Assembly: GCA_900547455.1 (NCBI GenBank) | Contig: URGV01000001.1 | Location: forward strand, 1 to 64,000 | Length of the DNA stretch: 64,000 bases | Origin: an uncultured Oscillospiraceae bacterium | GTDB lineage: Bacteria; Bacillota; Clostridia; Oscillospirales; Ruminococcaceae | Reading direction: 5' to 3' | In this document: piece by piece, positions 6,853-21,555 of the stretch | Position numbering within the stretch: position 1 is the first letter of the stretch | Layout: the number at the start of each line of letters is the position of its first letter | Position numbers and translations under genes: made by a program | Notes under the pieces: generated by a model | What the model was told of the DNA's origin: nothing | The model's database searches: none | What the model saw: only the letters and a program-made list of their open reading frames with translations

Positions 6853-6898
6853 GCTTTAATCTTCCCGCTTTGGTGAAATGCTCCGTTATACACAGGAG
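6853..6898 (+). other. Hybrid attachment site A (R1 side / CotJC tail)
   Basis: The left part (6853-6874) is one arm of an attP-like inverted repeat; its partner arm is at 21456-21477. The core CGCTTTGGTGAA (6866-6877) matches CGCTTCGGTGAA at 21445-21456 with one mismatch. Joining the two outer arms gives a 46-bp palindrome with 18 of 22 arm pairs complementary, centred on GA (6875-6876, equal to 21454-21455), which is the likely crossover dinucleotide. Confidence 0.75.
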
Positions 6899-7003
6899 CA
6901 GCTGGACAGCAAAAACTTCTATGCGTTTAATCCGTCCTACGACACCGCCACCAAAGCCCGCCGCACCGCCAGCAGCGGCAATAGCACCACAACCCGCCGG
7001 TAA
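6866..7003 (+). CDS. cotJC: CotJC C-terminal segment (third piece of the split gene)
   Basis: The open frame from the core encodes RFGE followed by MLRYTQEQLDSKNFYAFNPS and a basic tail ending at 7003. From family knowledge, clostridial CotJC proteins end with a LDSKNFYAFNPS-type tail after FQRFGE, so this is the CotJC C-terminus. No ribosome site precedes the ATG at 6878, which in the joined gene is just an internal methionine codon. It is in frame with the catalytic piece that ends at 21456. The Thr/Ser/Arg-rich last 15 residues resemble coat-protein tails. A strong terminator follows, as expected at the end of the cotJ operon. Confidence 0.85.
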   Translation, partial: RFGEMLRYTQEQLDSKNFYAFNPSYDTATKARRTASSGNSTTTRR

Positions 7004-7008
7004 CGGCA

Positions 7009-7050
7009 AAACAAAAGGGCCTGCTTTTTTAAAAGCAGGCCCTTTTGCTG
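7009..7050. terminator. Terminator after the CotJC tail
   Basis: A perfect 16-bp stem, arms 7013-7028 and 7031-7046, with A and T runs at both ends; it can work in both directions. It is the natural 3' end of an intact cotJABC operon, and it may also stop transcripts leaving the feo operon on the minus strand. Confidence 0.8.
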
Positions 7051-7095
7051 TTGTGTTGGTAATAAGAGAGAAAGCTCTATCGATTTTCCTGCCGG

Positions 7096-7482
7096 TCAGG
7101 CGGACATCTGGGGGAGATGCTCTGCTGAAAAGCAGGAACAGACATTTTTGAGCGTTTGGTCCGAAAGCTGTGAAAGCAGCGCCATCGAGCACTCCTGCGC
7201 GTCATATTCGCTCAATCCCAGCTGCTGAAAGATTGGACAGAGCGTTTGGTACTGCTCCTCGTGCTCGCGGGTCAGCTGGTGGCCCAGCTCGGTGATGCGA
7301 AGCGATTTGTCCGGCAGCTGTTCCAGCAGCCCCTCCTTGGTCAGGGAGGAGAGCATCTTGCAGACCGAGGCACGGGAGATGCCCAGCTGAACCGCCACAT
7401 CGATGCAGCGCACCCGCGGCAGCGACTTTTCCAGCGAATCGATTGTCAGAAGATAACGCAGTTTTCCAGAAGTCAGTTTCAT
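7096..7482 (-). CDS. DtxR/MntR-like metal-dependent regulator, short form
   Basis: A 128-residue protein whose first 65 residues form a winged helix of the DtxR/IdeR/MntR type (RYLLTIDSLE, then VAVQLGISRASVCKMLSSL as the helix-turn-helix). The helical remainder corresponds to the dimerisation/metal domain (residues LTREHEEQYQ and ECSMALLS). It is shorter than classical IdeR and lacks the SH3-like third domain. The start at 7482 is preceded by AGGAG. It is the last gene of the feoA-feoA-feoB operon, with a 48-bp gap after feoB, which suggests it senses iron and controls the TTAG-N6-CTAA boxes upstream of the operon. Confidence 0.8.
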   Translation of the reverse strand: MKLTSGKLRYLLTIDSLEKSLPRVRCIDVAVQLGISRASVCKMLSSLTKEGLLEQLPDKSLRITELGHQLTREHEEQYQTLCPIFQQLGLSEYDAQECSMALLSQLSDQTLKNVCSCFSAEHLPQMSA

Positions 7483-7530
7483 AATTCCAGGGCTCCTTTC
7501 ACCGGCATCCCACCTGCTCAAAAGGGGGGA

Positions 7531-9672
7531 TTATGCCGCAGCTTTTGCGGATTTTAATTTCTTGGCGCGGTCCTCCGGGTTTGGACGAACCAGCAGGTAG
7601 ACCAGGGCAGCAACCAGGATGATTGCCACGATGGTGCCCAGGCCAAAGACGCCGGTTGCAAACCAGGTGCCGAGCTGATAGATGATGAGCGAAACGATGT
7701 AAGCGAAGATGCACTGATAGCCGATGGCAATCCAGGTCCATTTCGCGCTGCCCATCTCCCTGTGGATGGCGCCGATGGCCGCAAAACACGGTGCGCACAG
7801 CAGATTGAAGACCAGGAAGGAGTAGGCGGAAATGGCGGTGAAGTTCTGGGCAAAGACGCTCCACATCTCGTCGCCGTTCTCCGCCACCTCAGCAAAGCCG
7901 TACAGGATGCCCATGATAGCGACCAGGTTCTCCTTTGCAACCAGGCCGGAGATGGTGCCGACGGCGGCCTCCCAGTGGCCCCAGCCAAGCGGCGCAAAGA
8001 TCGGGGCGATGACGCGGCCGATGGCGGCCAGGATGGAATCGCCGGTGTCGACCATCTGCAGCTGGAAGTTAAAGCTGGACAAGAACCAGATAACGACCGA
8101 GGACAGGAAGATGATGGTGCCGGCCTTGCGAACGAAGGCTTTGGCGCGGTCCCACATATGGATGAGGACGCCTTTTACGCTCGGGATGTGGTAAGCGGGC
8201 AGCTCCATGACGAAGGGGGCCGGTTCACCCGCGAACAACTTGGTTTTCTTGAGGATGATGCCGGAGATGATGATGGCGGCGATGCCGACAAAGTAGGCGG
8301 AGGTCGCTACCCAGCCGGATTCGTTAAACAGCGCGCCGGCAATCAGGCCGATGATCGGGAGCTTTGCCGAGCAGGGGATGAAGGTGGTGGTCATAATGGT
8401 CATCTTGCGGTCGCGGTCGTTCTCGATGGTGCGGCTTGCCTGTACGGCAGGAACGCCGCAGCCCAGACCGATCAGCATGGGGATGAACGACTTGCCGGAG
8501 AGGCCGAAGCGGCGGAAGATGCGGTCCATGATGAAGGCGATACGGGACATGTAGCCGCAGTCCTCCAACAGGGCAAGGAGCAGGAACAGCACCAGCATCT
8601 GCGGCAGGAAGCCCAGCACCGCGCCGACACCGGCGACGATGCCGTCCAGAATCAGCGATTGCAGCCAGTCGGCGGTGCCGACGGATACCAGCAGGCCCTC
8701 AACGGCAGGCGGAATGATCTCGCCGAACAGCACGTCGTTTACCCAGTCGGTCATCATGGTGCCGACGGTGGTGATCGAGATGTAGTAGATCAGGAACATG
8801 ACAACGGCAAAGATCGGCAGTGCAAGAATGCGGTTGGTGACAATCTTGTCGATCTTGTCGCTGGTGGTCAGCTTCTGCTTGGACTGTTTGCGGTAGCAGG
8901 TTTTGAGCAGGTCGGCAATCACGACATAGCGTTCGTGGGTGATGATGCTCTCGACGTCATCGTCAAATTCCTTTTCTGCCTCCTGGCGCAGCCCTTCGAT
9001 CTCTTCCAGAGCAGCGGGGCTGAGTTTGAGCTGCTCGATCGCCTTCTCGTCTCGTTCAAACAGCTTGATCGAGTACCAGCGCAGATTCTGCGGCTGGCAG
9101 GCGCCCTGCAGGAGCCTTGCAATCCGGGCCAGGATATTTTCCAGTTTGTCGTTAAACTTCAGCGGCTTTGGCGCGGCAGCCTTGCTCTGAGCCAGGTTCA
9201 GGGCAGCCTTGGCGACCTCGGTGCTGCCCTCGCCCTTGACGGCGCTGGTCTCGATGATCTGGCAGCCCAGCGCATCGGAGAGCTTTTTGACGTCGATCCT
9301 GTCGCCGTTCTTGCGGACCATATCCATCATGTTGAGGGCGATGACCATTGGCACGCCGATCTCCAGCAGCTGGGTGGTCAGGTACAGGTTGCGTTCCAGG
9401 TTGGAAGCGTCGATGATGTTGATCATCGAGTCTGGGTGCTCGTTTACCAGGTAGTTTCGGGTGACAACCTCCTCCAGTGTGTAGGGGGAGAGGGAATAGA
9501 TGCCCGGCAGGTCCTGAATGATAGCCTGCTTGTTGGCCTTGAGTTTACCCTCTTTTTTTTCAACGGTTACGCCCGGCCAGTTGCCGACATACTGGCTGCT
9601 TCCGGTCAGGTCGTTGAACATCGTCGTCTTTCCGCAGTTGGGGTTGCCAGCCAGCGCGATTTTATACTCCAT
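7531..9672 (-). CDS. feoB: Ferrous iron transporter B
   Basis: A 713-residue FeoB, the membrane channel for Fe(II) uptake. The N-terminal G domain has the P-loop GNPNCGKT (residues 9-16), G3 DLPGIYSL, and the guanine motif NMMD. A helical regulatory region follows, then Gate/Nramp-like membrane helices with the conserved GCGVPA and PCSAKLP regions. Length is typical. It is preceded by two separate FeoA genes and followed by the short DtxR-like regulator on the same strand. Confidence 0.96.
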   Translation of the reverse strand: MEYKIALAGNPNCGKTTMFNDLTGSSQYVGNWPGVTVEKKEGKLKANKQAIIQDLPGIYSLSPYTLEEVVTRNYLVNEHPDSMINIIDASNLERNLYLTTQLLEIGVPMVIALNMMDMVRKNGDRIDVKKLSDALGCQIIETSAVKGEGSTEVAKAALNLAQSKAAAPKPLKFNDKLENILARIARLLQGACQPQNLRWYSIKLFERDEKAIEQLKLSPAALEEIEGLRQEAEKEFDDDVESIITHERYVVIADLLKTCYRKQSKQKLTTSDKIDKIVTNRILALPIFAVVMFLIYYISITTVGTMMTDWVNDVLFGEIIPPAVEGLLVSVGTADWLQSLILDGIVAGVGAVLGFLPQMLVLFLLLALLEDCGYMSRIAFIMDRIFRRFGLSGKSFIPMLIGLGCGVPAVQASRTIENDRDRKMTIMTTTFIPCSAKLPIIGLIAGALFNESGWVATSAYFVGIAAIIISGIILKKTKLFAGEPAPFVMELPAYHIPSVKGVLIHMWDRAKAFVRKAGTIIFLSSVVIWFLSSFNFQLQMVDTGDSILAAIGRVIAPIFAPLGWGHWEAAVGTISGLVAKENLVAIMGILYGFAEVAENGDEMWSVFAQNFTAISAYSFLVFNLLCAPCFAAIGAIHREMGSAKWTWIAIGYQCIFAYIVSLIIYQLGTWFATGVFGLGTIVAIILVAALVYLLVRPNPEDRAKKLKSAKAAA

Positions 9673-9702
9673 TGTCCATCCTCTTTTCTGTTACAGTTTA
9701 AA

Positions 9703-9716
9703 TTAGTTTTTGCTAA
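9703..9716. promoter_or_regulatory. TTAG-N6-CTAA operator box upstream of feoB
   Basis: TTAG, six bases, CTAA, located 31 bp before the feoB start. Same architecture as the boxes at 10354, 10388 and 10433. Confidence 0.5.
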
Positions 9717-9776
9717 CTCTAGCGGCTTGAAAACAGCGCCGTTTTGCAGGCGCCGTCTGGTTCGCACTTTTGAAAA

Positions 9777-10001
9777 CTAGGCAGTCACTTCGATCTGTTC
9801 GCAGTCTGCTTTACGCAGCGAAAGCTCATAGCTGCGGACGTTGACCTCGATGGGATCGCCCAGCGGAGCTACCTTTCGAACATAGACCTCGGTGCCCTTG
9901 GTCAGCCCCATATCCATGATCCGGCGCTTGACAGCACCCTCACCATGGAGCTTGACGATGGTGACGGTCTGACCCGGCTTCACATCTTTGAGTGTTTTCA
10001 T
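9777..10001 (-). CDS. feoA: FeoA domain protein
   Basis: A 74-residue SH3-like FeoA protein. It shows the family pattern: an N-terminal LKDVKPGQTVTIVKLHG strand, the RRIMDMGLTKGTEV turn, and the terminal LRKADCEQIEV strand. FeoA proteins assist FeoB, probably by contacting its cytosolic domain. The start at 10001 has GGAGGG nine bases upstream. It lies between the second FeoA and feoB in one operon. Confidence 0.92.
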   Translation of the reverse strand: MKTLKDVKPGQTVTIVKLHGEGAVKRRIMDMGLTKGTEVYVRKVAPLGDPIEVNVRSYELSLRKADCEQIEVTA

Positions 10002-10075
10002 CGCAATATCCCTCCTATATTCCATTGGCTTTGCCGCACAGGCGGCGCCAATCCAGACAAAATGTTGGGGTAGCT

Positions 10076-10288
10076 TTACAGCATTACCCTGCGTGCCATC
10101 GTTTCGTCCAGAGCAATGCGGCTGCCCTTGACATTGATGATCAAATTTCCATTTAAAGACGAGACAACGGTCACTTCCTGCCCAGCTACAAAGCCAAGCT
10201 CCGCCAGATGCTGGCGAACGTCATCCTTTCCGGTGATTTTACGGATGACACTGGGTGTGCCGATGGGCGCAAGTGTTAATGGCATCAT
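10076..10288 (-). CDS. feoA: FeoA domain protein (first of two)
   Basis: A 70-residue SH3-like FeoA protein with LAPIGTPSVIRKITG, the QHLAELGFVAGQEVTV turn, and the C-terminal RIALDETMARRVML strand. Two ATG codons are adjacent (10288 and 10285); the GGGAGG site fits either. It is the promoter-proximal gene of the feo operon, directly downstream of three operator-like boxes. Confidence 0.9.
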   Translation of the reverse strand: MMPLTLAPIGTPSVIRKITGKDDVRQHLAELGFVAGQEVTVVSSLNGNLIINVKGSRIALDETMARRVML

Positions 10289-10353
10289 GATACCTCCCTC
10301 TTTCTATGGAATCTCAAAAAGTTGGCTGGAAAAGTGTTGTTTGACATCAGTAA

Positions 10354-10446
10354 TTAGCTCTAGCTAACTTTTGAATCTGGTGTTAGTTTAGCACAGACTA
10401 ACTCTCATGTCAATAAAGCCTGCGCCAATATGTTACCTTAGGCTAA
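10354..10446 (-). promoter_or_regulatory. Feo control region with three TTAG-N6-CTAA boxes
   Basis: Three 14-bp boxes precede the feo operon: TTAGCTCTAGCTAA at 10354-10367, TTAG-CACAGA-CTAA at 10388-10401, and TTAC-CTTAGG-CTAA at 10433-10446. They resemble the half-site pattern of DtxR/IdeR iron boxes (TTAGG...CCTAA). The first is a perfect palindrome apart from its 2-bp centre. The spacing suggests several repressor dimers covering the promoter. Confidence 0.65.
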
Positions 10447-10484
10447 CACTGAGGTTGCTAGATACAAAATATTTATAAAATTTA

Positions 10485-10544: not shown

Positions 10545-10558
10545 CGGGAGGCGATTAC

Positions 10559-10882
10559 ATGAAGGAGACACATCAGCCGCTGACCGATGCCGTCTTTTAC
10601 ATCCTGCTGGCGCTGCGACGCCCCAACCACGGCTACGGCGTCGTGCAGCAGGTGGAGCAGATGACCGGCGGCAGGCTCATTCTGGGGCCGGGGACGCTGT
10701 ACGGGGCGCTCAATCAGCTGACCGAACGGGGCTGGATCGAGGTCTACAGCCAGCAGACCACCTCCCGCAAAAAGAAGGAATATGTCATCACTCCGCAGGG
10801 GCGGGAAGCCTTTGCCAAAGAGTTGGAGCGATTAGAGGAGATGCTGCGCAACAGCGCGCTGATGGAGGAGGATGCACAATGA
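10559..10882 (+). CDS. PadR family transcriptional regulator
   Basis: A 107-residue winged-helix repressor of the PadR family. Landmarks are DAVFYILLALRRPNHGYGV (helix 1 and the conserved HGYG), then GPGTLYGALNQLTERGWI (recognition helix and wing), and KKKEYVITPQGREAF. The protein ends with a short dimerisation helix. It overlaps the next gene by the ATGA tetranucleotide, so the two are translationally coupled. A palindromic operator lies over its transcription start. Confidence 0.92.
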   Translation: MKETHQPLTDAVFYILLALRRPNHGYGVVQQVEQMTGGRLILGPGTLYGALNQLTERGWIEVYSQQTTSRKKKEYVITPQGREAFAKELERLEEMLRNSALMEEDAQ

Positions 10883-11394
10883 AACAACTGCACCGCTGGA
10901 AGTTATACTTTGACAAGGACCTGGAAGAAAGCTGGCTCAACCAGCTGGCGCAGCAGGGCTGGGGATTGACCTCCTTCTGCCTGGGGCGCTACACCTTTGA
11001 GCCGATCGAGCCGGGGGAATATATCTACCGCGTCGATCTGCTGCCCAGCGACGAGGAGAAAAAGCAGGAATACTTCTCCCTCCTGCGCGAGATGGGGGTG
11101 GAGGTCGTCCAGCAGTGGGGCTTCTGGTTTTTCTGCCGCCGCCGCGCAAGCGAGGGCCCCTTCGAGCTGTACAGCGACGCGCCCTCCAAAGCCAGCCACT
11201 ACGGCCGCATCGCCAGGATGTTTTTTCTGGTTGCGCTGCTGGAAATTGTCTGCGCCCTCTTTCAGATACCCGCCATCCTCACCGGAGACGGCCAGATCAA
11301 CCTGGCCGCGATGGTGCTGCTGCTTTTATTGGGCGCGGTGCTCCTGCGGCAGGGGATGCGGTTTCAGAGAAAGCAAAAGGAACAGCAAAAGTAA
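10879..11394 (+). CDS. DUF2812 membrane protein
   Basis: A 171-residue protein of the DUF2812 family, which typically sits directly behind a PadR regulator. The N-terminal soluble part carries the conserved WKLYFDKDLEESWLNQLAQQG and the aromatic GRYTFEP segment. Two hydrophobic helices (about residues 113-132 and 139-157) anchor the C-terminal part, and a short basic tail follows. The function is unknown; the pairing suggests it is the main target of the PadR protein, perhaps in envelope stress sensing. Confidence 0.85.
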   Translation: MKQLHRWKLYFDKDLEESWLNQLAQQGWGLTSFCLGRYTFEPIEPGEYIYRVDLLPSDEEKKQEYFSLLREMGVEVVQQWGFWFFCRRRASEGPFELYSDAPSKASHYGRIARMFFLVALLEIVCALFQIPAILTGDGQINLAAMVLLLLLGAVLLRQGMRFQRKQKEQQK

Positions 11395-11438
11395 AGAACG
11401 GAGCGCTTGCCAAATGCGGCAAGCGCTCCGTTCTTTAC
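11391..11438. terminator. Bidirectional terminator between convergent genes
   Basis: A perfect 21-bp stem, arms 11391-11411 and 11418-11438. It overlaps the stop codons of both the DUF2812 gene and the minus-strand acetyltransferase. Confidence 0.9.
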
Positions 11439-12184
11439 TTTTTGAGGATTCGTTTTAAGGTGGCAAGGTCCAGCAGGTTGACCGTCTGGAACTGCCCCTT
11501 ATAAAAGACCGCCCAGTTGTTAAAGACGCAGGGCAGCGCCTTTGCCTTCTCCAGCGTGTCCACCTCGATCAGGTGGAAGGGGACAGCGTTCTGCTCGCAG
11601 TGCTGCCGCACCGTCTTGAGGGCTTGCTCGGTGTAGGGGCACTGGCGGCTGAAGTAGATGGTCAGCTCCTGCTCCTCGATGGTCTGGAGCTTTGCATTGG
11701 GCAGAAAGTGCGGCTTGGTTCCATCAAAGGAGAGGGCCAGCAGCTCGTAACCGTCAGCGGTTGTGTCGACGGGGACAAAGCCAAACTTTTTGACAAACTC
11801 CTGGTCGGAGAGCCATGCCTTCTTCTTTTGCGCGCCCAGCATGCAGACGCCGGATTTTCCCTGCTTGCGGGCGTCGTCGATGCAGTATTCCATCAGCGCC
11901 CGGCCATAGCCCTTGCCCTTATAGTCGCCCAGCACCCACAGGCAGTAGATGTACAGAAAGTTGCTGCCCGCAACCGGGACCCACGCGGTCTCCAGCGGGG
12001 CGTACTCGATAAAGACGGTCGCCTTGGCGTCCAGCTTGCGAAAGACGTGCCCTTCCCGCAGGCGCTGGGCAAGCCATTGCCGTTTTGCCTCCACGCCGGG
12101 GTGCGGCTTTTTGCTGCGGATGATGCAGCACAGGTGCTGCTCGGACAGATTTTCGGGGGACAGGTTGATAAACTGCTCGTCCAT
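11435..12184 (-). CDS. GNAT acetyltransferase with YoaP-like domain
   Basis: A 249-residue two-domain protein. Residues 1-150 form a GNAT fold with the acetyl-CoA loop VLGDYKGKGYGRALM near residue 87. The C-terminal part (from about residue 173) is a YoaP-type thioredoxin-like domain that begins with TIYFSRQCPYTEQAL. Bacillus YoaP has the same arrangement; the substrate is unknown. It is followed on the minus strand by the shared terminator and preceded by the ABC exporter gene with a 27-bp gap. Confidence 0.85.
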   Translation of the reverse strand: MDEQFINLSPENLSEQHLCCIIRSKKPHPGVEAKRQWLAQRLREGHVFRKLDAKATVFIEYAPLETAWVPVAGSNFLYIYCLWVLGDYKGKGYGRALMEYCIDDARKQGKSGVCMLGAQKKKAWLSDQEFVKKFGFVPVDTTADGYELLALSFDGTKPHFLPNAKLQTIEEQELTIYFSRQCPYTEQALKTVRQHCEQNAVPFHLIEVDTLEKAKALPCVFNNWAVFYKGQFQTVNLLDLATLKRILKK

Positions 12185-12211
12185 ACGCTCCTCCTTTGGC
12201 GGTGCTGGCAG

Positions 12212-13930
12212 TTAAATCCGCGCGAACTGCGCCTCGTACAGCTCCTTGTAGATGCCGTTGCCGCGGGCTAAAAGCTCCTCGTGGGTGCCGCGCTCTTCGA
12301 TGCCGTCGCGATCCATCACGATGATTTCGTCGGCATTTTTGATGGTGGACAGGCGGTGGGCCACCACGATGGTGGTGCGGTTTTTGCACAGCTCATCCAG
12401 CGAATCCTGGATGTAATTTTCGGTGACGTTGTCCAGCGCGGAGGTCGCCTCGTCCAGCACCAGGATCGGCGGGTTCTTTAAAAAGACCCGCGCAATCGAG
12501 ATGCGCTGCTTCTGTCCGCCCGACAGCTTGACGCCGCGCTCGCCCACAAAGGTGTCGTAGCCCTCCGGCAGGCTCATGATGTAGTCGTGGATATTCGCCT
12601 TCTTGGCCGCCTCATAGACCTCCTCGCGGGAAGCGCCCAGCTTGCCGTAGGCGATGTTGTCGAAGATGGTGCCGGTGAAGAGGAAAACGTCCTGCTGCAC
12701 AATGCCGATCTGGCGGCGCAGCGAGGCGCGGGTGACGTCGCGGATGTCGTGGCCGTCCACCAGGATGGAGCCGCCGGAAATCTCATAGAAGCGGGGAATC
12801 AGGTGGCACAGGGTGGTCTTGCCGCCGCCCGATGGGCCGACGATGGCAACCATCTTGCCCTGCGGGAAGGTCAGCGAGATGTGGGAGAGGACCTCCTTAT
12901 TCTCGTCGTAGTGGAAGGTGACATCGTCAAAGACTATCTCGCCGCGGACGTCCTTGAGCTCGATGGCGCCCTTCTCGTCCTGCTCCGGCTCCACATTCAT
13001 CAGCTCCTGGAAGCGGACGTAGCCGGTGATGGCGTTTTGGAACATCTCGACAAACTGGATGAGCTTTTTGATGGGGTTGACGAACATGTTGATAAACAGC
13101 ATGTAGGCCACCATGTCGCCGACGTTGATGACGCCGCGGTAGACGCAGTAGCCGCCCGCCGCCAGGATGACGACGTTCATCAGCGAGGTCAAAAAGTTGG
13201 TACCGGAGAAAAACTCCGCCATGACGCGGTAGGAGCGCTCCCGCACGGTGACGTAGCGCTGGTTGTTTTCAGCAAACTTTTTCTCCTCCTCGCGCTCGCC
13301 GGTGAAGGCGCGGGAGACGCGGATGCCGGCGATGCTGTTTTCCAGGCTGGCGTTGACCTCGGCGATCTCGATGCGGTTTTTGCGGAAGGCCATGGTCATG
13401 GCGGACCGCTTTTTGATGATGAACAGCACCAGGAACGGCAGCACCGCAAAGGTGATGAGTGTCAGCGGGATGTTGACGGTGCACAGAATGATGAAGGCGC
13501 CGACCACGGTGACGATCGAGATGAACAGATCCTCCGGGCCGTGGTGGGCAAACTCGGAGATGTCCATCAGGTCGTTGACGATGCGCGACATGATGACGCC
13601 GGTCTTGTGCTCGTCAAAGTAGGAGAACGGCAGCTTCTGCAGGTGCTCAAAGACGTCGCGGCGCATGTCTGCCTGCATGCGCACGCCGACGATGTGGCCC
13701 TGGTACTGCATGAAGTACTGCATGACGGTCTGGATGATGTAGATCACCAGCAGCGCCGCGCACCAGGTCAGGATCAGCCGGATGTTTTTGTCCGGGATGT
13801 AGGTGTTGATGATGTTGCGGGAAACCACCGGATACACCAGGTCGCAGCCGGCGGCAACCAGCGCGCAGATCATGTCGAACACAAACAGCTTCCAGTGCGG
13901 CTTGTAGTAATGGGCAAACGATCTCAGCAT
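12212..13930 (-). CDS. ABC exporter, fused membrane and ATPase domains
   Basis: A 572-residue half-transporter of the multidrug/lipid exporter type. Six membrane helices cover about residues 1-310. The nucleotide-binding domain has Walker A GPSGGGKTT, signature LSGGQKQR, and Walker B ILVLDEATSA followed by the AHRLST switch. It would act as a homodimer, as only one such gene is present. The ATG at 13930 is preferred over the GTG at 13939 because GGGAG lies eight bases before it and abuts the GTG. The cargo cannot be deduced. Confidence 0.93.
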   Translation of the reverse strand: MLRSFAHYYKPHWKLFVFDMICALVAAGCDLVYPVVSRNIINTYIPDKNIRLILTWCAALLVIYIIQTVMQYFMQYQGHIVGVRMQADMRRDVFEHLQKLPFSYFDEHKTGVIMSRIVNDLMDISEFAHHGPEDLFISIVTVVGAFIILCTVNIPLTLITFAVLPFLVLFIIKKRSAMTMAFRKNRIEIAEVNASLENSIAGIRVSRAFTGEREEEKKFAENNQRYVTVRERSYRVMAEFFSGTNFLTSLMNVVILAAGGYCVYRGVINVGDMVAYMLFINMFVNPIKKLIQFVEMFQNAITGYVRFQELMNVEPEQDEKGAIELKDVRGEIVFDDVTFHYDENKEVLSHISLTFPQGKMVAIVGPSGGGKTTLCHLIPRFYEISGGSILVDGHDIRDVTRASLRRQIGIVQQDVFLFTGTIFDNIAYGKLGASREEVYEAAKKANIHDYIMSLPEGYDTFVGERGVKLSGGQKQRISIARVFLKNPPILVLDEATSALDNVTENYIQDSLDELCKNRTTIVVAHRLSTIKNADEIIVMDRDGIEERGTHEELLARGNGIYKELYEAQFARI

Positions 13931-14059
13931 AAAAAACACTCCCTCATGATTGTCTTACCTCTAATCAGTTCTTTTATGATACACCTTTTTGCATTTTTTT
14001 GCAATCCGGCAGGGAAGCAAAAAGAAAATTTTGCCGCGCCTTTGTTACACAGGACAATC

Positions 14060-14088
14060 AAAAAAGCCGGCAGCGATGCCGGCTTTCG
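14060..14088 (-). terminator. Terminator of the alpha/beta hydrolase gene
   Basis: AAAGCCGGC/GCCGGCTTT stem (14063-14071 and 14078-14086) with a T tract on the minus strand. Confidence 0.75.
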
Positions 14089-14132
14089 GGAGAGAATATG
14101 AAAAAGAAATGTTGTCCAATGAAAGGGAAATT

Positions 14133-15134: not shown

Positions 15135-15289
15135 TCAATCACCTCTACACGATTTTAATAGAATTTTTATCCTGATGTATTATAACACAGATGCCTGTAG
15201 AAAATAAAAACTTTTTGTGAAATATCCTTCCCTTTTTCTGTAAATAAAATCCCTCCCCGTGGCAATGGGGAGGAATGAAAATGTGCAAT

Positions 15290-15988
15290 CTATTCTTTGA
15301 TCTGTCCGTCGATCGAGATAATCTCTACCTGCCAGGGAATCAGCTTGCCGCAGGCGGCCAGCGCCTTTTTGAGGGCGTTTTCCAGCCCGCCGCAGCAGGG
15401 GACCTCCATCCGGACCAGGGTGATGCTCTTGATATGGTGCGATTTTAAGATTTCGGTCAGCTTTTCCGCATAGTCCACCGGGTCCAGCTTGGGGCAGCCG
15501 ACCAGCGTCACCCGGTTGCGGATGAAGCGGTTGTGGAAATCGGCATAGGCAAAGGCGGTACAGTCGGCGGCGATCAGCAGGTGCGCGTCCTCAAAGAAGG
15601 AGGCGTTTGGCGCAACCAGCCGCAGCTGCACCGGCCACTGGGAAAGCTGGCTCTGCGGAACGGCTGTAGAGACGTTGGCGGCAGGCTGCGGGTGCAGTGC
15701 CCTTGCCATCGAGCCGGGGCAGCCGTGCGGTTTCTGCCCAGTGGAAGCTTTCGCCGCCTGACTTGCCAGAACGGCCTGCTCGTCATAGGCGGCAGCCTCC
15801 CGCTCAATGATGCTGATGGCGCCGGTGGGGCAGGCCGGCAGGCAGTCGCCCAAGCCGTCGCAGTAGTCGTCGCGGATCAGCTTTGCCTTTCCATTCACCA
15901 TCGCAATCGCGCCCTCGTGGCAGGCGCTGGCGCACAGGCCGCAGCCGTTGCAGAGTTGTTCATTGATCGAAACAATTTTGCGGATCAT
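15290..15988 (-). CDS. 4Fe-4S ferredoxin-type protein
   Basis: A 232-residue protein with two [4Fe-4S] motifs at its N-terminus: CNGCGLCASACHEGA (residues 14-28) and a variant second motif DYCDGLGDCLPACPTGA. The remaining 160 residues include a CPK and the CCGGLENAL motif, found in stand-alone proteins that pair with Crp-type regulators. It probably carries electrons or senses redox state. It is divergent from the Crp-family gene, sharing a 121-bp intergenic region, which suggests common control. Confidence 0.88.
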   Translation of the reverse strand: MIRKIVSINEQLCNGCGLCASACHEGAIAMVNGKAKLIRDDYCDGLGDCLPACPTGAISIIEREAAAYDEQAVLASQAAKASTGQKPHGCPGSMARALHPQPAANVSTAVPQSQLSQWPVQLRLVAPNASFFEDAHLLIAADCTAFAYADFHNRFIRNRVTLVGCPKLDPVDYAEKLTEILKSHHIKSITLVRMEVPCCGGLENALKKALAACGKLIPWQVEIISIDGQIKE

Positions 15989-16035
15989 CGTTTGATACCT
16001 TCCCTTTCTTCTATCGCATGATTGTAATTTTTGAA

Positions 16036-16094
16036 TTGACCTTCTGAGAAAAGGATACTATAATGGGGAAAAAAGATCTGTTGGATTTCCAACA
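16036..16094 (+). promoter_or_regulatory. crp-family gene promoter and palindromic operator
   Basis: TTGACC (16036-16041), 17 bp, TATAAT (16059-16064). The perfect palindrome TGTTGGA-TT-TCCAACA (16079-16094) lies just downstream of the expected start of transcription. That position fits repression, likely autoregulation by the encoded Crp-family protein. Confidence 0.7.
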
Positions 16095-16109
16095 AAACGA
16101 GGTGAAGAG

Positions 16110-16772
16110 ATGGATTGTCAAAAACTCACAGCGGTTTCGTTGTTTGCCGGGATGCAGCCGGAGGAGGTCGAGGCGGTGCTAAACTGCTTTGGCGTTCAGT
16201 CGGCGCAGTACGAGCGCGGGGAGGTGATCTTTGCCGCGGGGCAGAAGATTCGCCAGATTGGGATCGTCCTTTCCGGCAAGGTGATGGTCGAGCGGGACGA
16301 CTATTGGGGCAATCGCTCCATCCTGGCAGCGGTCGGGGAGGGGGAGGTGTTCGCGGAAACCTACGCCTGTCTGTCCCAGGCAAGGTCGGACGTCAACGTC
16401 GTGGTGGCGCAGCACAGCGAGGTGTTGCTGCTGCAGGTGCAGAAGGTGCTGACCCTCTGTCCCACCGCCTGCCCCTTTCATCGGCGCATCCTACAAAATC
16501 TGCTGGAGGTGACCGCAAACAAAAACCGCCAGCTCAGCCTGAAGCTCGAGATTCTCTCCCGCAAAACCACCCGCGAAAAGCTGCTGGCCTACCTCTCCTA
16601 TCAGGCAGGGATGGCTCCCGGGGGCGGGAAGGCGGCCTTTGTCATCCCCTTTAACCGCCAGCAGCTGGCGGACTACCTCTCGGTGGACCGCAGCGCCATG
16701 ACGGTGGAGCTGGGGAAGCTCAAAAAGGAAGGCCTCATCGACTTTGACAGGAACACCTTCCGCATCTGCTAG
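16110..16772 (+). CDS. Crp/Fnr family transcriptional regulator
   Basis: A 220-residue regulator. The N-terminal cyclic-nucleotide-binding-like beta roll spans residues 5-120 (GEVIFAAGQKIRQIGIVLSG, GEVFAETYACLS). It is followed by the dimer helix and a C-terminal helix-turn-helix, FNRQQLADYLSVDRSAMTVE. The beta roll has no Fnr-type N-terminal Cys set. In similar gene pairs in Clostridia this type of protein sits opposite a ferredoxin-like gene and reacts to oxidative or nitrosative stress; that role is inference here. Confidence 0.9.
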   Translation: MDCQKLTAVSLFAGMQPEEVEAVLNCFGVQSAQYERGEVIFAAGQKIRQIGIVLSGKVMVERDDYWGNRSILAAVGEGEVFAETYACLSQARSDVNVVVAQHSEVLLLQVQKVLTLCPTACPFHRRILQNLLEVTANKNRQLSLKLEILSRKTTREKLLAYLSYQAGMAPGGGKAAFVIPFNRQQLADYLSVDRSAMTVELGKLKKEGLIDFDRNTFRIC

Positions 16773-16979: not shown

Positions 16980-16984
16980 ATACC

Positions 16985-17191
16985 ATGCTGTTTCATCTGA
17001 ACAACAGCGAACAGGAGAGCGGCTGCTCGGTGTTTACTGACCAGCCGATTTCGCTGGCGATGGCATATGTCCCCACCCAGAAGTGGGAAGATTTATACGA
17101 AAGCAGTCTCGGCTTTGCGCGCGGAACCATTTTCGCCCAACTGGATAAGCCATTCATCGGAGAGGAGGCTGTGCCAAATGGCTCAAAATAG
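16985..17191 (+). CDS. cotJA: Spore coat protein CotJA
   Basis: A 68-residue protein matching the CotJA family: a core around LAMAYVPTQKWEDLYESSLGFARGTIF and the following LDKPF. CotJA is an inner-coat component made in the mother cell. The length is normal. It is the first gene of cotJABC, and its last 14 bases overlap cotJB. The ribosome site lies in the right arm of a long-range inverted repeat. Confidence 0.92.
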   Translation: MLFHLNNSEQESGCSVFTDQPISLAMAYVPTQKWEDLYESSLGFARGTIFAQLDKPFIGEEAVPNGSK

Positions 17192-17456
17192 CACCAGACA
17201 AACCCTGATGAAGCGGGTGCAGATGTACGAGTTTGCGCTCGTCGAGGCAAACCTCTTTCTGGACAGCCACCCGGACGACCAGGAGGCGTTAAAATACTAC
17301 AGCAAGTACGCAGGCCTTTTGCAGGAAGCCAAGGCGGCGTATGAAAAGCAGTTCGGCTCCCTGACCCCGGCTGTCGCCGACGGCGCGACCCGTTGGAGCT
17401 GGGTGGACGATCCGTGGCCGTGGGATCTGCAGGCCAATACAGGGGAGGAGGCATAA
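17178..17456 (+). CDS. cotJB: Spore coat protein CotJB
   Basis: A 92-residue CotJB-family protein with LMKRVQMYEFALVEANLFLDSHPDD and the Trp-rich end WSWVDDPWPWDL. The start at 17178 follows GAGGAGG inside the end of cotJA. CotJB is needed with CotJA and CotJC in the inner coat. It is followed four bases later by the start of the split cotJC. Confidence 0.93.
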   Translation: MAQNSTRQTLMKRVQMYEFALVEANLFLDSHPDDQEALKYYSKYAGLLQEAKAAYEKQFGSLTPAVADGATRWSWVDDPWPWDLQANTGEEA

Positions 17457-17460
17457 CATC

Positions 17461-17571
17461 ATGTGGAGTTATAGCAAGAAACTGGAATACCCGGTGAAGA
17501 TTGCGCGCCCCAATGCGGCGGCCGCAAAGGTCATCATCTCACAATTGGGAGGACCCAATCGCAACATCTGA
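17461..17571 (+). CDS. cotJC: CotJC N-terminal segment (first piece of the split gene)
   Basis: MWSYSKKLEYPVKIARPN and onward is the start of the Mn-catalase-like CotJC; codons 1-31 are true to the family. The frame then reads PNRNI and stops at 17571, after the core CAATTGGGAGG (17542-17552). The family sequence continues as GGPDGEL, which is found in frame at 21013. Unjoined, this would be a 36-residue peptide without catalytic residues. A terminator follows at once, so a cotJ transcript from the interrupted locus ends here. Confidence 0.93.
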   Translation: MWSYSKKLEYPVKIARPNAAAAKVIISQLGGPNRNI

Positions 17572-17575
17572 CTAT
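17530..17575 (+). other. Attachment site of the 3.47-kb element, left end
   Basis: The core CAATTGGGAGG at 17542-17552 is repeated at 21013-21023. The element-side arm ACCCAATCGCAAC (17553-17565) pairs with the element-side arm at the other end: 10 of the first 13 positions after the central GG (17551-17552) are complementary. This is typical of a serine integrase attP that was split by integration. Confidence 0.8.
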
Positions 17576-17578
17576 GCA

Positions 17579-17618
17579 AAAGCCAGCGTGTATCTTGAAG
17601 GCGCTGGCTTTCTCTTTT
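17579..17618. terminator. Terminator between the CotJC fragment and R2
   Basis: AAAGCCAGCG/CGCTGGCTTT stem (17579-17588 and 17602-17611) followed by CTCTTTTTC. It can serve both the truncated cotJ transcript and the convergent R2 gene. Confidence 0.75.
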
Positions 17619-17619
17619 T

Positions 17620-19050
17620 CTAAAGATAATAGTGGATCTCGATACAATTGTTCTGCCGGTCAAAGCGGACCTGCCGGATCAGCGCGCGCAGCAGCCGGTT
17701 TTTTTCCGCCCCGGAAATGGCGGGGTCGGACAAAAAGGGAAGCACCGGCTGCTCCCGATAGAGTGGCAGGCGGGATGCTTGCGGCTGAGGGCTTTCCTGC
17801 GCCTGCAGGAGGGCGAGCTGGCGCCTTAGCTGCTCGAGTGTGGCGGAGAGCTTTTCTTTGTTTTGCCGGTACTCCTCCAGCGTGTCGATGCCGGCCTCAT
17901 AGGCCCTGCGGACGCGCTCTAACCGGCTTTGCTCCCGCGCAATCTGCCCCTGCAGCAGGGCGATGGGGTTGGCAGCGGGGGCGGGTTGACGCAGGTGCAG
18001 CGAAAAAGCAGCTTCCCCGAAGTCGACCCGCAGCGTTTCGATCACCCAGCGCACAAGCTTCTGCTCCTGAATCGAGTGGGAGACGGTGCACCGGCCGCGG
18101 GCATAGGCGTTGCACTGCAGGCTGTTGGCGTTTCGGACCAGCGTTGCGCCGCAGCTGCTGCACCGCACCAGCCCGCGCAGCATAAATTCGCAGCCGGGCC
18201 TGACAGACGGCTTTGCCTTTTGCGGGTACAGGCTTTTGAGCTGGGCAATGCGCCTTTGTGCGGCGTCCCAGTCCGCCGGGGAGACAAGCGCCTGGTGCTG
18301 GCCGTCGGCGAGGATGGAGGGGACAGAGAGGGATTTGCTGTGGGGGTTCCAGCGAATCTTTCCAGCATAGACGGGGTTTTGCAGGATGTAGGCGACGCCG
18401 CGGCTCTCCATCCGGTTGCCAAAGCGGGTGCGCACCTGCAGGGTGTCGAGCTTCTGCACAATCTCCCGGTAGCCCATCCCGGCCAGAAAGTCGGCGTAGA
18501 TCATCTGCACCAGCGGCGCCGTGACCGGGTCGGGCAGATACCGCTTATCCTCAATGCGGTAGCCGAAGGGAGCGTAGGTCAGCGGCTGGCCGCGCCGCGC
18601 CTTCTCCGCCATGCCGCGGGTCACCTCCTCGGCGAGATTGACGCTGTAAAACTCATCCATCGCCTCGATGATGGCCTCGGTGATGATCGCCATCTTGTCG
18701 TCGCCCAGATATTCGCTGACCGAGATGACGTCAATGCCCAGCTCCTTGCGCAGCATCGACTTGTAGACGATGCTGTCCTGCCGGCTGCGGGCAAAGCGGG
18801 AATATTTCCAGACCAGGATGGCGTCGAAGGGCTTGGGGCTCTGCTTTGCTGCAGCAATCATCCGCAAAAATTCGGGCCGCTTGCTGCTCTGCCGCCCGGA
18901 ACGCCCCTCCTCCTCGACAAAGACCCACTGCTGCGGCAGAAAAAAGCCGTTGTCTTTGGCGTAGCGGCGAATCTGCAAAAGCTGGCTGTCCGGGGAATAT
19001 TCCAGCTGGTCGTCGGTCGACACACGGATGTAAGCGGCGGCTGTCCTCAC
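17620..19050 (-). CDS. Large serine recombinase R2 of the cotJC element
   Basis: A 476-residue large serine recombinase. The catalytic domain starts AAYIRVSTDDQ (Ser11) and includes the WKYSRFARSRQDS arginine region. It is followed by a recombinase domain, a zinc ribbon (RCSSCGATLVRNANSLQCN, about residue 294 on) and a coiled coil (about 365-420). The GTG at 19050 is favoured by GGGAG eight bases upstream; an earlier GTG (19059) abuts that site. It lies 48 bp from the left boundary of the element and should catalyse recombination between 17542 and 21013. Confidence 0.92.
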   Translation of the reverse strand: MRTAAAYIRVSTDDQLEYSPDSQLLQIRRYAKDNGFFLPQQWVFVEEEGRSGRQSSKRPEFLRMIAAAKQSPKPFDAILVWKYSRFARSRQDSIVYKSMLRKELGIDVISVSEYLGDDKMAIITEAIIEAMDEFYSVNLAEEVTRGMAEKARRGQPLTYAPFGYRIEDKRYLPDPVTAPLVQMIYADFLAGMGYREIVQKLDTLQVRTRFGNRMESRGVAYILQNPVYAGKIRWNPHSKSLSVPSILADGQHQALVSPADWDAAQRRIAQLKSLYPQKAKPSVRPGCEFMLRGLVRCSSCGATLVRNANSLQCNAYARGRCTVSHSIQEQKLVRWVIETLRVDFGEAAFSLHLRQPAPAANPIALLQGQIAREQSRLERVRRAYEAGIDTLEEYRQNKEKLSATLEQLRRQLALLQAQESPQPQASRLPLYREQPVLPFLSDPAISGAEKNRLLRALIRQVRFDRQNNCIEIHYYL

Positions 19051-19073
19051 AAAAACCACTCCCTTTCACTTTA

Positions 19074-19082
19074 AAGGTATGC
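19074..19082 (-). promoter_or_regulatory. Possible mother-cell sigma -10 element of R2
   Basis: On the minus strand GCATACCTT lies about 24 bp before the R2 start. It fits the SigK -10 pattern (GCATANNNT) and in six of eight positions the SigE pattern (CATACAAT). No matching -35 is obvious, so the call is weak. Confidence 0.25.
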
Positions 19083-19164
19083 GGTGCGGGGACGGGAAAG
19101 AAGCAGAACCGCGGTATCGGACAACCTGCTCAATCCATACAATAGAGCCAGGAGGTGAACCCGA

Positions 19165-19374
19165 ATGGGCAAACAGAAGCTGACGTCTAAAACTTATGTT
19201 CATCTGCCGGACGGAAGGGTGCTGCCGGTCAGCACGGTACACGACGCCGGCGGGGCAGAGATGCAGATCGAGCGCCATCTGCCCTGCGAACAGTGGGAAC
19301 AGATGGTCCAGAAAATGATGGAGCGGGCGGGGGAGGTGATGTCGGACTGCTACAGCGCGCAGATGGGCAGGTGA
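19165..19374 (+). CDS. Small hypothetical protein of the cotJC element
   Basis: A 69-residue soluble protein I do not recognise. It has an excellent ribosome site (AGGAGGTGA) eight bases before the ATG, and a predicted beta-rich first half and a helical second half (EQWEQMVQKMMERAGEVMSD). It is divergent from R2 within the element. A role as excision factor is possible from position only. Confidence 0.6.
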   Translation: MGKQKLTSKTYVHLPDGRVLPVSTVHDAGGAEMQIERHLPCEQWEQMVQKMMERAGEVMSDCYSAQMGR

Positions 19375-19528
19375 TAACGCAAGCGTTCGCACGATTCTTT
19401 CTCTTTAAATTTTTTTGTCGAATTTTGCAAAAACCGCAGGATCCTGCGGGGACAAATGCGCCGAAATCTGGTATGCTCTAATTAGTAAATTTTGGAAATT
19501 TTTCCGATGTGGCAAGGAGGATTTGAGG

Positions 19529-19759
19529 ATGAGCAATCCAAAGAAAAGAAAGCAGGGGAGCGTCTTGAAACAAAAGCGCATGGAAGCGGGTTTGACACAG
19601 GAAAAAGCGATCGAATATTTAGGGTTTTCCCTGAGAAGTCTGCAGGCTTATGAAAAGGGAGAGTCTACGCCTTCCCTGGCGAAAGCGGTGGAGATGGCTC
19701 GGCTTTATGGATGCAAGGTGGATGATCTGACCGAGAGAAAAGAGGATGAGGAAGAATGA
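19529..19759 (+). CDS. XRE-type helix-turn-helix regulator of the element
   Basis: A 76-residue Cro/CI-type DNA-binding protein. The helix-turn-helix spans about residues 9-65 (KQKRMEAGLTQEKAIEYLGF, SLRSLQAYEKGESTPS). GGCAAGGAGG precedes the ATG. Upstream is an AT-rich promoter region (TGGTATGCTCTAATTAG). It overlaps the next gene by ATGA. It probably regulates genes of the element, perhaps R2. Confidence 0.85.
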   Translation: MSNPKKRKQGSVLKQKRMEAGLTQEKAIEYLGFSLRSLQAYEKGESTPSLAKAVEMARLYGCKVDDLTERKEDEEE

Positions 19760-19977
19760 CGCTATACTATGTGGTGCCATCGCCCCACCCTGCGGCGGGG
19801 TGGAGCTACAGCATCGTCGGGCAGGAATTTGACCCGCAGGGGTCGACGATACACAGCGTGCTGATTCCGGATATTTCCTGCGACAAAAATTTTGTTATAA
19901 AGCTGGCGGAACGCTGCACGACGGGACAGCTGCTGATGGAGCAGCTGTGCGAAGTAGTCTACGACGCGCTGCCATAA
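19756..19977 (+). CDS. Hypothetical protein coupled to the XRE regulator
   Basis: A 73-residue protein with no recognised family. It overlaps the XRE gene by four bases and so is translationally coupled to it. No membrane segment or signal is visible. A regulator partner or antitoxin-like role would be a guess. Followed by 190 bases with only a terminator for the convergent gene. Confidence 0.55.
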   Translation: MTLYYVVPSPHPAAGWSYSIVGQEFDPQGSTIHSVLIPDISCDKNFVIKLAERCTTGQLLMEQLCEVVYDALP

Positions 19978-20045
19978 AGGGGGATTTTTCCTGCTTTGCA
20001 AACCGCCAGGCTTTTGAGGATCCGGCGGCCTCTTTTTCTGCATAC

Positions 20046-20074
20046 AAAAAGGCAGCCGCTTTGAGCGGCTGCCC
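20046..20074 (-). terminator. Terminator of the element's membrane-protein gene
   Basis: GCAGCCGCT/AGCGGCTGC stem (about 20052-20072) followed on the minus strand by TTTTT. Confidence 0.75.
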
Positions 20075-20167
20075 GCAATAGTGGTGCGGAAACAAAAAAT
20101 TCGCTGCCATTCCGGAAAATACCAGGCATGACCTTTCTGAGCCGAAAACGGCGATTTTAAAGGAGTT

Positions 20168-20914
20168 TTAAGGGTTGCACACCCCGCAGGGGATAAACCC
20201 TTGGGCGATTGCCTCCTCCCGGCTGGAGCAGGTCCGGTAGTTCTCGGGGCTGATTTTGGAAGCATAGCGGCAGTTGGCGTAGTGAAACTTCATCGAGTTT
20301 GTGTTGAGCACATAAGTTACGGCGGCAGTGTTGTTTTCGCTTCCCAGGAGGTCGCCGCCCTGGCCGGTGGATTCACTGCCGGTTTGTACTTCCGGGACAG
20401 TGGCGGCAGGGGACTGCACGGCCTGCGATTCGCCGATGACCGGCGGGTCGTCCTCTTCGGGAATTTCCTCCTGTGGAGAAGTCGGCGGGATGGAGGGTGT
20501 CTGACCCGCCATCGCCTGCATAATGAAGGAGGAAAGCAGCTCGACGCTGGGATTTTCTTCTGCGGGCATTTCTACAATAACCTGGGAAGGGGCACTTTGT
20601 GCTGGAGCTTGCGTGATTGTCTGGGAAGGCACGGCTGTCTGCAATGAATTGATAGGGAGCGGCGGCGGCAGGATCAACCGGCCACCGGCAAAGAGCAGCA
20701 AGGAGAGTAGGCAGAGGATGGATTGAAAGCGGCCGCGCATGATCTTTTGTTGCACGGGAGGCGTAGCAAGCACAGCCCCCGCCAAAAAGCATAGCGAGCT
20801 GAGTGTGAAGAAGGAATCCAGGAATTCCCCCAGCAGCAAAATGCAGATCCCCCACTGGAGCAGCCGGATTGCCAGCTGGACCCAGTCCGGGCGTGATTTT
20901 TTGGAAACGGGCAA
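20168..20914 (-). CDS. Element-encoded membrane protein with C-terminal Cys-rich motif
   Basis: A 248-residue protein. Hydrophobic helices occupy about residues 10-80, followed by a Pro/Gln/Glu-rich linker, then a compact C-terminal domain beginning TYVLNTNSMKFHYANCRY and ending PCGVCNP. Such NTNSxKFH...C...CGxCxP tails are found at the ends of secreted nucleases and other exported proteins of Firmicutes and look metal-binding. I chose the TTG at 20914 because GGGGAGG precedes it and because the upstream ATG codons lie near or across the attachment site. Its function is unknown. Confidence 0.6.
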   Translation of the reverse strand: MPVSKKSRPDWVQLAIRLLQWGICILLLGEFLDSFFTLSSLCFLAGAVLATPPVQQKIMRGRFQSILCLLSLLLFAGGRLILPPPLPINSLQTAVPSQTITQAPAQSAPSQVIVEMPAEENPSVELLSSFIMQAMAGQTPSIPPTSPQEEIPEEDDPPVIGESQAVQSPAATVPEVQTGSESTGQGGDLLGSENNTAAVTYVLNTNSMKFHYANCRYASKISPENYRTCSSREEAIAQGFIPCGVCNP

Positions 20915-20999
20915 GACAAATCCCTCCCCTGAGCAATCGCTTGATAAGCCTATCATATCACAAAAGGAAGGAGAAGGAAATAAGAGAAAGCGGCAAATT

Positions 21000-21045
21000 T
21001 CATCTCTTGCTGCAATTGGGAGGGCCCGATGGAGAGTTGGGCGCG
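21000..21045 (+). other. Attachment site of the 3.47-kb element, right end
   Basis: The core CAATTGGGAGG at 21013-21023 is the direct partner of 17542-17552. The element-side arm GCTGCAATTGGGA precedes the central GG (21022-21023), and the gene side continues as the CotJC reading frame. Confidence 0.8.
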
Positions 21046-21555
21046 GCGACACGCTACCTCAGCCAAAGATATTCGGCGCCCTGGGGCCAGGTGAAGGCAG
21101 GGCTGACCGACATCGGCACCGAGGAACTGGCCCACATCGAGATTGTCAGCGCCATCCTGTACCAGCTGACCAAGGGCCTGAGCATCGACGAGATCAAGGA
21201 GGGCGGCCTGGAGACATATTTTGTGGATCACACCACCGGCATCTACCCGCAGGCGGCTTCGGGCATGCCGTTTTCGGCAAGCACCCTGCAGTCGACCGGC
21301 GACATCATCTGCGATTTGACCGAGGACCTCGCTGCGGAACAGAAGGCCAGGGTGACCTATGACAACATCCTGCGCCTGGTGGATGACCCGGATGTGCGCG
21401 ATCCGATCAAGTTTTTGCGCGAACGGGAGATTGTCCACTTCCAACGCTTCGGTGAAGCAAACCGGGCAGAGAAAAGCATCGGCTTTTCCTCATTTTCCGG
21501 TAGAAAAAGAGCAGCAAAAAATCGGAAGGAATCCCTTCCGATTTTTTGCTGCTGA
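21013..21555 (+). CDS. cotJC: CotJC catalytic segment (middle piece of the split gene)
   Basis: From 21013 to 21456 the frame encodes 148 residues of Mn-catalase-like CotJC, including all expected metal-ligand regions: PDGEL, IGTEELAHIEI, LAAEQKA and REREIVHFQRFGE. It has no start codon or ribosome site of its own. After the second core (CGCTTCGGTGAA, 21445-21456) it departs from the family and runs through NRAEKS… to a stop at 21555. The true continuation is the tail at 6878-7003. Joined, the three pieces give 27 + 148 + 41 = 216 residues, a normal CotJC length. Confidence 0.9.
   Translation, partial: QLGGPDGELGAATRYLSQRYSAPWGQVKAGLTDIGTEELAHIEIVSAILYQLTKGLSIDEIKEGGLETYFVDHTTGIYPQAASGMPFSASTLQSTGDIICDLTEDLAAEQKARVTYDNILRLVDDPDVRDPIKFLREREIVHFQRFGEANRAEKSIGFSSFSGRKRAAKNRKESLPIFCC
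21430..21477 (+). other. Hybrid attachment site B (CotJC middle / former R1 element arm)
   Basis: CGCTTCGGTGAA (21445-21456) is the partner of 6866-6877. The bases to its right, GCAAACCGGGCAGAGAAAAG, form the second arm of the attP-like repeat whose first arm is at 6853-6874 next to R1. Direct orientation with site A; crossover-to-crossover distance is 14,579 bp. Confidence 0.75.

Follow-up and report, generated by a model that had tools for sequence, protein, structure and literature searches.

The window examined here, meaning the whole stretch of DNA that was analysed, comprises 64,000 nucleotides from an uncultured, Negativibacillus-like Oscillospiraceae bacterium (contig URGV01000001.1, positions 1 to 64,000) and carries the spore-coat gene cotJC in three separate pieces, N-terminal (N, 17461-17541), middle (M, 21013-21444) and C-terminal (C, 6866-7003), which follow one another on the chromosome in the order C-N-M. 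We count cotJC as a sporulation gene by its family name. Each break lies beside a gene for a large serine recombinase, and the features of the split gene, including small open reading frames (ORFs) and putative attachment (att) sites, are as follows.

5128..5307, + strand: ORF of 59 amino acids directly upstream of R2, candidate R2 partner or directionality factor
5314..6816, + strand: R2, large serine recombinase of the residue-176 break (PF00239, PF07508, PF13408)
6866..6877, + strand: core CGCTTTGGTGAA, attR-like, opening the C piece; the R2 ORF ends 49 bases upstream
6866..7003, + strand: cotJC C-terminal piece, from residue 172 and with the stop (by join and profile)
17461..17552, + strand: cotJC N-terminal piece (residues 1-27) and core CAATTGGGAGG at 17542 (by join, profile and core search)
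17553..21012, no strand: E1, between two CAATTGGGAGG cores, 3,471 bases core to core
17620..19059, - strand: R1, large serine recombinase of the residue-28 break (Resolvase, Recombinase and zinc-ribbon Pfam domains)
19165..19374, + strand: ORF of 69 amino acids divergent from R1, candidate directionality factor
21013..21456, + strand: cotJC middle piece (residues 28-171) and core CGCTTCGGTGAA at 21445 (by join, profile and PF05067)
21457..21480, + strand: attP-like arm after the M piece (attL-like), from comparison of arms at site-176 junctions

Joined frame, recombinases and attachment arms

Core CAATTGGGAGG is present at 17542 and 21013 only, and core CGCTTYGGTGAA at 6866 and 21445 only, all on the + strand, when both strands of the whole window are searched, while two or more copies were obtained in 0/100 shuffles for either core. 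Both pairs are in direct orientation. Joined at the cores, N, M and C give 651 nt including the stop, which encode 216 residues with no internal stop. The joined protein matches a CotJC profile in one gapless stretch over residues 1-200 with 373 bits, so neither join adds or drops a residue, while on their own N, M and C score 46.9, 283.6 and 37.7 bits, respectively. The profile was made of 56 CotJC proteins from a set of 80 loci (the best 80 of 577 matches), a set which favours intact genes and from which the frequency of splits was not judged. The last 16 residues of the join extend past the profile and are exact in the public protein cluster P0002 and altered in P0001. The M ORF belongs to PF05067 (CotJC / Mn-catalase family, E 2.5e-38), and as a whole protein it is the join that fits the family.

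The original prediction, made from the sequence alone, had proposed a cotJC broken twice into three pieces, a join following the CotJC family, a large serine recombinase at each break and a last piece placed upstream of the first, all of which is borne out. Its division into 27 + 148 + 41 residues holds for the total of 216, with the boundaries recut: M contributes 144 codons (28-171) followed by a four-codon core, and at the first join both copies of the core encode residue 28 (Q).

R1 and R2 each combine Resolvase, Recombinase and zinc-ribbon domains in a protein of ~480-500 amino acids, which is the make-up of large serine recombinases, and both match the phage integrase family PHROG 95. 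Their profile matches end 64 bases from N (R1) and 53 bases before C (R2). As well as R1, E1 contains the small ORF, a helix-turn-helix protein (Pfam) and, at 20168, a gene that matches no Pfam family. The 69-residue ORF, a candidate directionality factor judging by its place and relatives, has a homologue (48% identity) beside the recombinase of a related genome, G319, and weaker matches in loci L206 and L208, away from their recombinases. Similarly, the 59-residue ORF, a candidate R2 partner or directionality factor, has a homologue (33%, E 2.6e-4) in the same position in L170, ahead of the closest relative of R2, and a search of the other 11 loci gave nothing better than E 0.38.

After the core of M the window reads GCAAACCGGGCA. 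Within the first 12 bases of this arm, 7-10 are shared by 8/11 of the other site-176 junctions with enough sequence, against a mean of 3.1 at random window positions, 1.9% of which reach 7. The C piece follows R2 as it does in the in-order elements L126, L129, L131 and L170. The window and G319 have similar arms before M at site 28, with a local alignment score of 62, and following N they share GGACCCAATC and then diverge. All three breaks, two in the window and one in G319, fall at cores whose arms resemble those of elements in normal order. With an attP-like arm 3' of M and with C following R2, the two cores form direct repeats, and recombination between them would release 14,579 bases, or 11,108 without E1.

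cotJC and its recombinases in related sequences

Among the matches listed for the 148 genomes around G103, at least 60 genomes (hand count) have a match that covers about residues 1-193 or more, while at least 46 have CotJC-like matches (at least 55% identity) as pieces only, some of these pieces stopping at contig ends; the piece ends listed cluster at about residues 28, 61, 135 and 176. IMG/VR contains 40 loci with a CotJC relative, and in 0/40 does the match start at residue 1: 12 start at 25-31, 25 at 54-65 and three elsewhere (L236, L244, L245), while four matches end at 175-177. The viral contigs L217, L224 and L231 carry a middle piece flanked by one recombinase before site 28 and another after site 176, which are the two breaks of the window. 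Genome G114 possesses four cotJC pieces and three recombinases, in order, on one 1.55-Mb contig, and G141, G163 and G092 have at least two breaks each in cotJC. cotJC is therefore a recurrent target, hit at four sites and by up to three elements per gene, and two or more recombinase-tagged breaks in one gene, which the original prediction supposed to be new when combined with a last piece upstream of the first, are not unique to the window. In addition, one contig (G007 C38, L064 10001-10532), on which cotJC is otherwise joined, stops a few bases past the residue-176 core, as though the assembly had been broken there by an element.

The phylogeny of the recombinases tracks the break site. The tree holds 66 sequences (61 different), each an ORF match no shorter than 1,100 bases and no more than 2,500 bases away from a break. 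All 13 site-176 recombinases form one clade (100/100) that includes R2, and R1 falls within a clade of 18 labelled site 28 (100/100), in which two identical rows, L218 and L219, were kept although their cotJC matches start at residue 57. Sites 61 and 135 each do not form one clade. The best match shares the site label in 65/66 recombinases, and the four labels need 5 changes on the tree vs 32.7 in shuffles. A search of the viral contigs with the R1 and R2 proteins themselves confirmed no relative.

Joined and split forms are both present among public proteins. Clusters P0001-P0004 are 96-99% identical to the window join and contain both joins, on contigs of 1180, 721, 1160 and 1160 bases, respectively, P0004 being identical to it over residues 1-190, across both joins. 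In genome G386, whose N and M-C pieces lie on two contigs, the predicted join equals P0080 in 207/207 residues (longest contig 185,966 bases). The match provides an independent check of the join rule, although P0080 was already among the listed proteins when the G386 join was made. The split middle forms P0121-P0128, on contigs of up to 139,637 bases, all leave cotJC at site 176, and 6/8 enter it from E1; P0124, P0126, P0128 and P0131 continue into the antisense of the gene at 21570, as the window does. Lone C-piece ORFs form ten clusters (P0145-P0154; 38-63 amino acids, 78-100% identity over 85-100% of the 41-residue query), five of which were inspected, from a search that admitted short proteins only and by which split and joined forms are not to be weighed against each other.

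Between the window and G319, synonymous divergence (dS) is 1.81 and nonsynonymous divergence (dN) 0.065 in N (33 codons); M (152 codons) has dN 0.083 with synonymous sites saturated, and C (27 codons) has dS 1.21 and dN 0.143. The corresponding dS and dN against G386 are 1.80 and 0.112 (N), 1.27 and 0.133 (M), and 0.84 and 0.098 (C). The dN values of N and M are slightly raised, since the core plus two codons of the arm were counted with N and four codons beyond the core with M. Such low dN in all three pieces would not be expected of a long-dead gene.

The neighbours of the split gene in the window, which are needed for the comparison with G319, are listed below.

3475..5004, + strand: cardiolipin synthase gene, left outer flank (NCBIfam TIGR04265, above cut-off)
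7096..10025, - strand: DtxR-like regulator, FeoB and FeoA, inside the excisable stretch (Pfam for DtxR-like and FeoB; the name FeoA is presumed)
10559..16772, strand not assigned: PadR-like, ATP-binding cassette (ABC) transporter, hydrolase, iron-sulfur (Fe-S) protein and Crp-like genes, inside the excisable stretch (colinear with G319; Crp by Pfam, the other names presumed or from matches below cut-off)
16985..17191, + strand: cotJA (ORF; matches lie ahead of cotJB in relatives; the name is our assumption)
17178..17456, + strand: cotJB (PF12652)
21570..22382, - strand: presumably lipoprotein-like gene, right outer flank (no NCBIfam family matched; its G319 homologue adjoins the cardiolipin synthase homologue)

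G319 is one of the six genomes of the genus set, and its cotJC lies on a 1.69-Mb contig with N at C1:1313657-1313755 and M-C at 1325077-1325628, both on the minus strand, so that M-C stands ahead of N in the reading direction. The permuted order is thus not confined to the window but shared by this relative, which is opened at another site. In the reading direction, genes like those at 25734-28382 of the window are followed by an R1-type recombinase (67-68% identity to R1), a small ORF, a 254-residue protein with a weak minor-tail match and a holin, and then by M-C, DtxR, feoB, feoA, PadR-like and other genes, ABC transporter, hydrolase, Fe-S protein, Crp, cotJA, cotJB, N and sigK. From C to N (7105-17537), the window has the same genes in the same order and orientation, with 73%, 85% and 99% identity for the DtxR-like protein, FeoB and FeoA, respectively. 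G319 is opened at residue 28, while the window is opened at 176 and has the small in-order E1 between N and M.

Homologues of the window genes at 127, 942, 1860, 3475, 21570, 22451 and 24370 form an unbroken row in G319, where those of the cardiolipin synthase and lipoprotein-like genes are ~60 bases apart. The flanks of the window being joined in this way, about 5005-21569 of the window (the 59-residue ORF, R2, the cassette, E1 and M) is a 16.5-kb insertion relative to G319, whose own cassette lies ~114 kb from its empty window-type site. The cotJ-feo stretch consequently sits at different chromosomal places in the two genomes, each opened at a cotJC core, and the simplest link between the layouts would be a circular intermediate with a whole cotJC.

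Two further observations concern the surroundings of the G319 cassette. The sigK gene (C1 ~1312747-1313616, L194; NF004471 above cut-off, TIGR02846 at 298.5 vs a cut-off of 298.65) comes immediately after N with its attP-like arm, which places the attachment site of the permuted G319 cassette next to a gene that is interrupted by skin elements in other species. The genes at 25734-28382, ~4 kb to the right of the window cassette, have their homologues, inverted, beside the cassette of G319 (C1 ~1329390-1332183), which points to further rearrangement around cotJ loci.

Proposed rebuilding on a circle and the alternatives

cotJC is split at two serine-recombinase-type cores, and we consider it probable, from the layout of pieces, cores and recombinases, that it would be rebuilt by R1 and R2 on an 11.1-kb circle. 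R1 would remove E1, joining N to M at residue 28, and R2 would recombine the M and C cores to produce a circle with intact cotJABC and feoAB, on which the mended cotJC would stand together with the start of its operon. Because C lies upstream of N and M, recombination by R2 would excise the stretch from C to the M core (14.6 kb; 11.1 kb without E1), and the chromosome would not be mended. The action of R1 and R2 on the cotJC cores is predicted from their position and arms, and by analogy with skin-type elements the excision would most likely be programmed, taking place in the mother cell during sporulation. Loss of feoAB from the mother-cell chromosome would be harmless because that cell dies.

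A fuller account, which we put forward tentatively and hold at somewhat less than an even chance, adds a history to this scheme: the scrambled cotJC would be unscrambled in the mother cell onto a cotJ-feoAB circle, the chromosome keeping the recombinase and attP, and the same circle would also have moved between chromosomal sites of related species by switching the cotJC core at which it is opened. The cotJ-feo stretch may have circularised by way of an att site inside cotJC and then integrated into the chromosome where a recombinase and attP stood, via site 28 beside sigK in G319 and via site 176 between the cardiolipin synthase and lipoprotein-like genes in the window.

Several points weigh against rebuilding. 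Among the 21 genomes or contigs with at least two pieces mapped on one contig, 19 have them in order and on one strand (G140, G142, G170, G196, G159, G182, G193, G167, G141, G149, G093, G114, G119, G109, G163, G239, G145, G092 and G438), and only G319 and the window are permuted; this tally leaves out G060, G386, G144 and G466, whose pieces are on different contigs. Three of the 11 other site-176 junctions are without the arm of the window (L149 with 6, L127 with 4 and L152 with 3 of 12 bases). P0001-P0004 may come from element-free strains or be assembler chimeras, given contigs of 721-1180 bases, and P0080 may likewise come from an element-free strain. By eye, seven further CotJC proteins (P0079, P0084, P0085, P0086, P0088, P0099 and P0132) seem to begin as the protein of one species and to end as that of another, with the change after about residues 100-176; these unlike halves are likely assembler chimeras and call for caution with joined forms on short contigs. 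The low dN may date in part from before the breaks, and excision would strip feoAB from the chromosome, which would be costly if it leaked in growing cells. A scan for sigma-E and sigma-K promoters, which was not used as evidence, gave as the best sigma-E-like sites one with 5 mismatches before cotJA (equalled in 102/200 shuffles) and ones with 4 mismatches before R2 (15/200) and before the 69-residue ORF (21/200), and none within 5 mismatches before R1.

The alternative that survives best, though we regard it as unlikely, is that of a frozen relic, in which phages or islands broke cotJC, a later rearrangement scrambled the order and the gene was never rejoined, the joined proteins coming from element-free strains. 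It would account for the fact that the closest joined clusters are only four, all on short contigs, vs the split P0121-P0128 on contigs of up to 139,637 bases, and other Negativibacillus strains do have an unbroken cotJC on long contigs (P0015, 920 contigs). However, all three pieces keep a low dN against G319 despite high synonymous change, the cores still match and are in frame, and R1 and R2 are complete.

Another reading, in which the cotJ-feo circle serves mainly as a cassette that is mobile or has alternative locations, relocating the operon over evolution without any role in sporulation, is improbable. It fits what is seen in G319 and the window, where the stretch occupies separate chromosomal places and is opened in each at a cotJC core, but production of CotJC still needs the joining of a chromosomally broken gene, whose pieces look selected. 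An assembly artefact, with a true order N-E1-M-E2-C and a mis-joined window contig, is very improbable: the in-order layout does rule in relatives (19/21 mapped) and such elements do terminate contigs (L064, L124, L128, L130), yet the same permuted C-to-DtxR and Crp-cotJAB-N neighbourhood lies on the 1.69-Mb contig of G319, M likewise runs on antisense to the 21570 gene in four public clusters and the lone C-piece ORFs recur as well. A rotated small plasmid was set aside, as the flanking genes of the window follow the G319 chromosome.

Known systems and related cotJ loci

According to the available parts of the sources cited in this section, programmed DNA rearrangement in sporulation concerns a handful of genes with one element each (PMC5595907, PMC4191935). 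Known skin-type elements include skin in sigK, SPbeta in spsM, vfbin in spoVFB, vrin in spoVR and gin in gerE, which uses a 9-bp core (PMC5595907, PMC4191935), and also yin in yabG. In these cases a sporulation gene is split at a short repeat by an element that bears a recombinase, and the join restores the frame. The same layout, that is, an interrupted gene with short end repeats, a frame-restoring join and a recombinase at one end, is found at both cotJC breaks. For E1 (residue 28), it would also leave the mended gene on the chromosome, as in skin-type systems; for the R2 break it would not, with C upstream and the join on the circle. Unlike skin-type systems, in which one element per gene is removed and the mended gene stays chromosomal, the window cotJC has two recombinases per gene, pieces out of order and a mended gene predicted on an excised circle.

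Several elements in one gene are known from the heterocyst interruption elements of cyanobacteria, where 10/87 interrupted genes have multiple elements and nifD of Rivularia has four (PMC4874684), which also weakens the claim of multi-break novelty. These elements belong to another developmental programme, and out-of-order pieces were not found in the part of the source available, the word "inversion" being absent from its main text (PMC4874684). In Clostridioides difficile R20291, attR of the prophage phi027 lies beside the CotJC-like gene cotG / CDR20291_1465 (PMC11222575, PMC12122855). Here, too, a prophage attachment site adjoins a spore-coat gene of the CotJC family, but so far as these sources go the gene is downstream of attR and not split, and there is one prophage, in order. 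The phi027 site suggests that the CotJC family attracts integrases beyond the genomes sampled here. The scrambled genes of ciliates, too, have their pieces stored out of sequence, and DNA recombination restores the proper order. Unlike cotJC, for which two site-specific serine recombinases would do, the ciliate process is eukaryotic and RNA-guided and involves many pieces. A search of PMC by title and start of abstract, a collection without preprints and most subscription journals, found no split or scrambled cotJC.

Recombinases that group by position have hit cotJC at four recurrent sites across many related genomes and viral contigs, at times three of them at once, and in one genus the pieces of the gene are permuted, so that repair would yield an extrachromosomal coat-gene circle. 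Three questions thereby become testable, namely why cotJC is targeted, whether coat genes are expressed from excised circles in the mother cell, and whether host operons move as circles via phage-type integrases.

Finally, three further genomes bear on the neighbourhood of cotJ. In G466, the ABC-transporter gene of the cassette lies within ~160 bases after the 3' piece, which suggests, without proving, that it shares the permuted neighbourhood. In G144 (C5, L115 12569-14163), an R1-type recombinase and a homologue of the 20168 gene lie ~11 kb downstream of M-C, at a distance of ~3.5 kb from genes for Fe-S and Crp proteins that resemble the neighbours of cotJA; cotJB is on another contig. In G386 (C30, L198 698-4069), the stretch before M-C encodes a 1123-residue protein, which we take from its sequence to be restriction-enzyme-like, and some cotJC elements may therefore carry defence genes.

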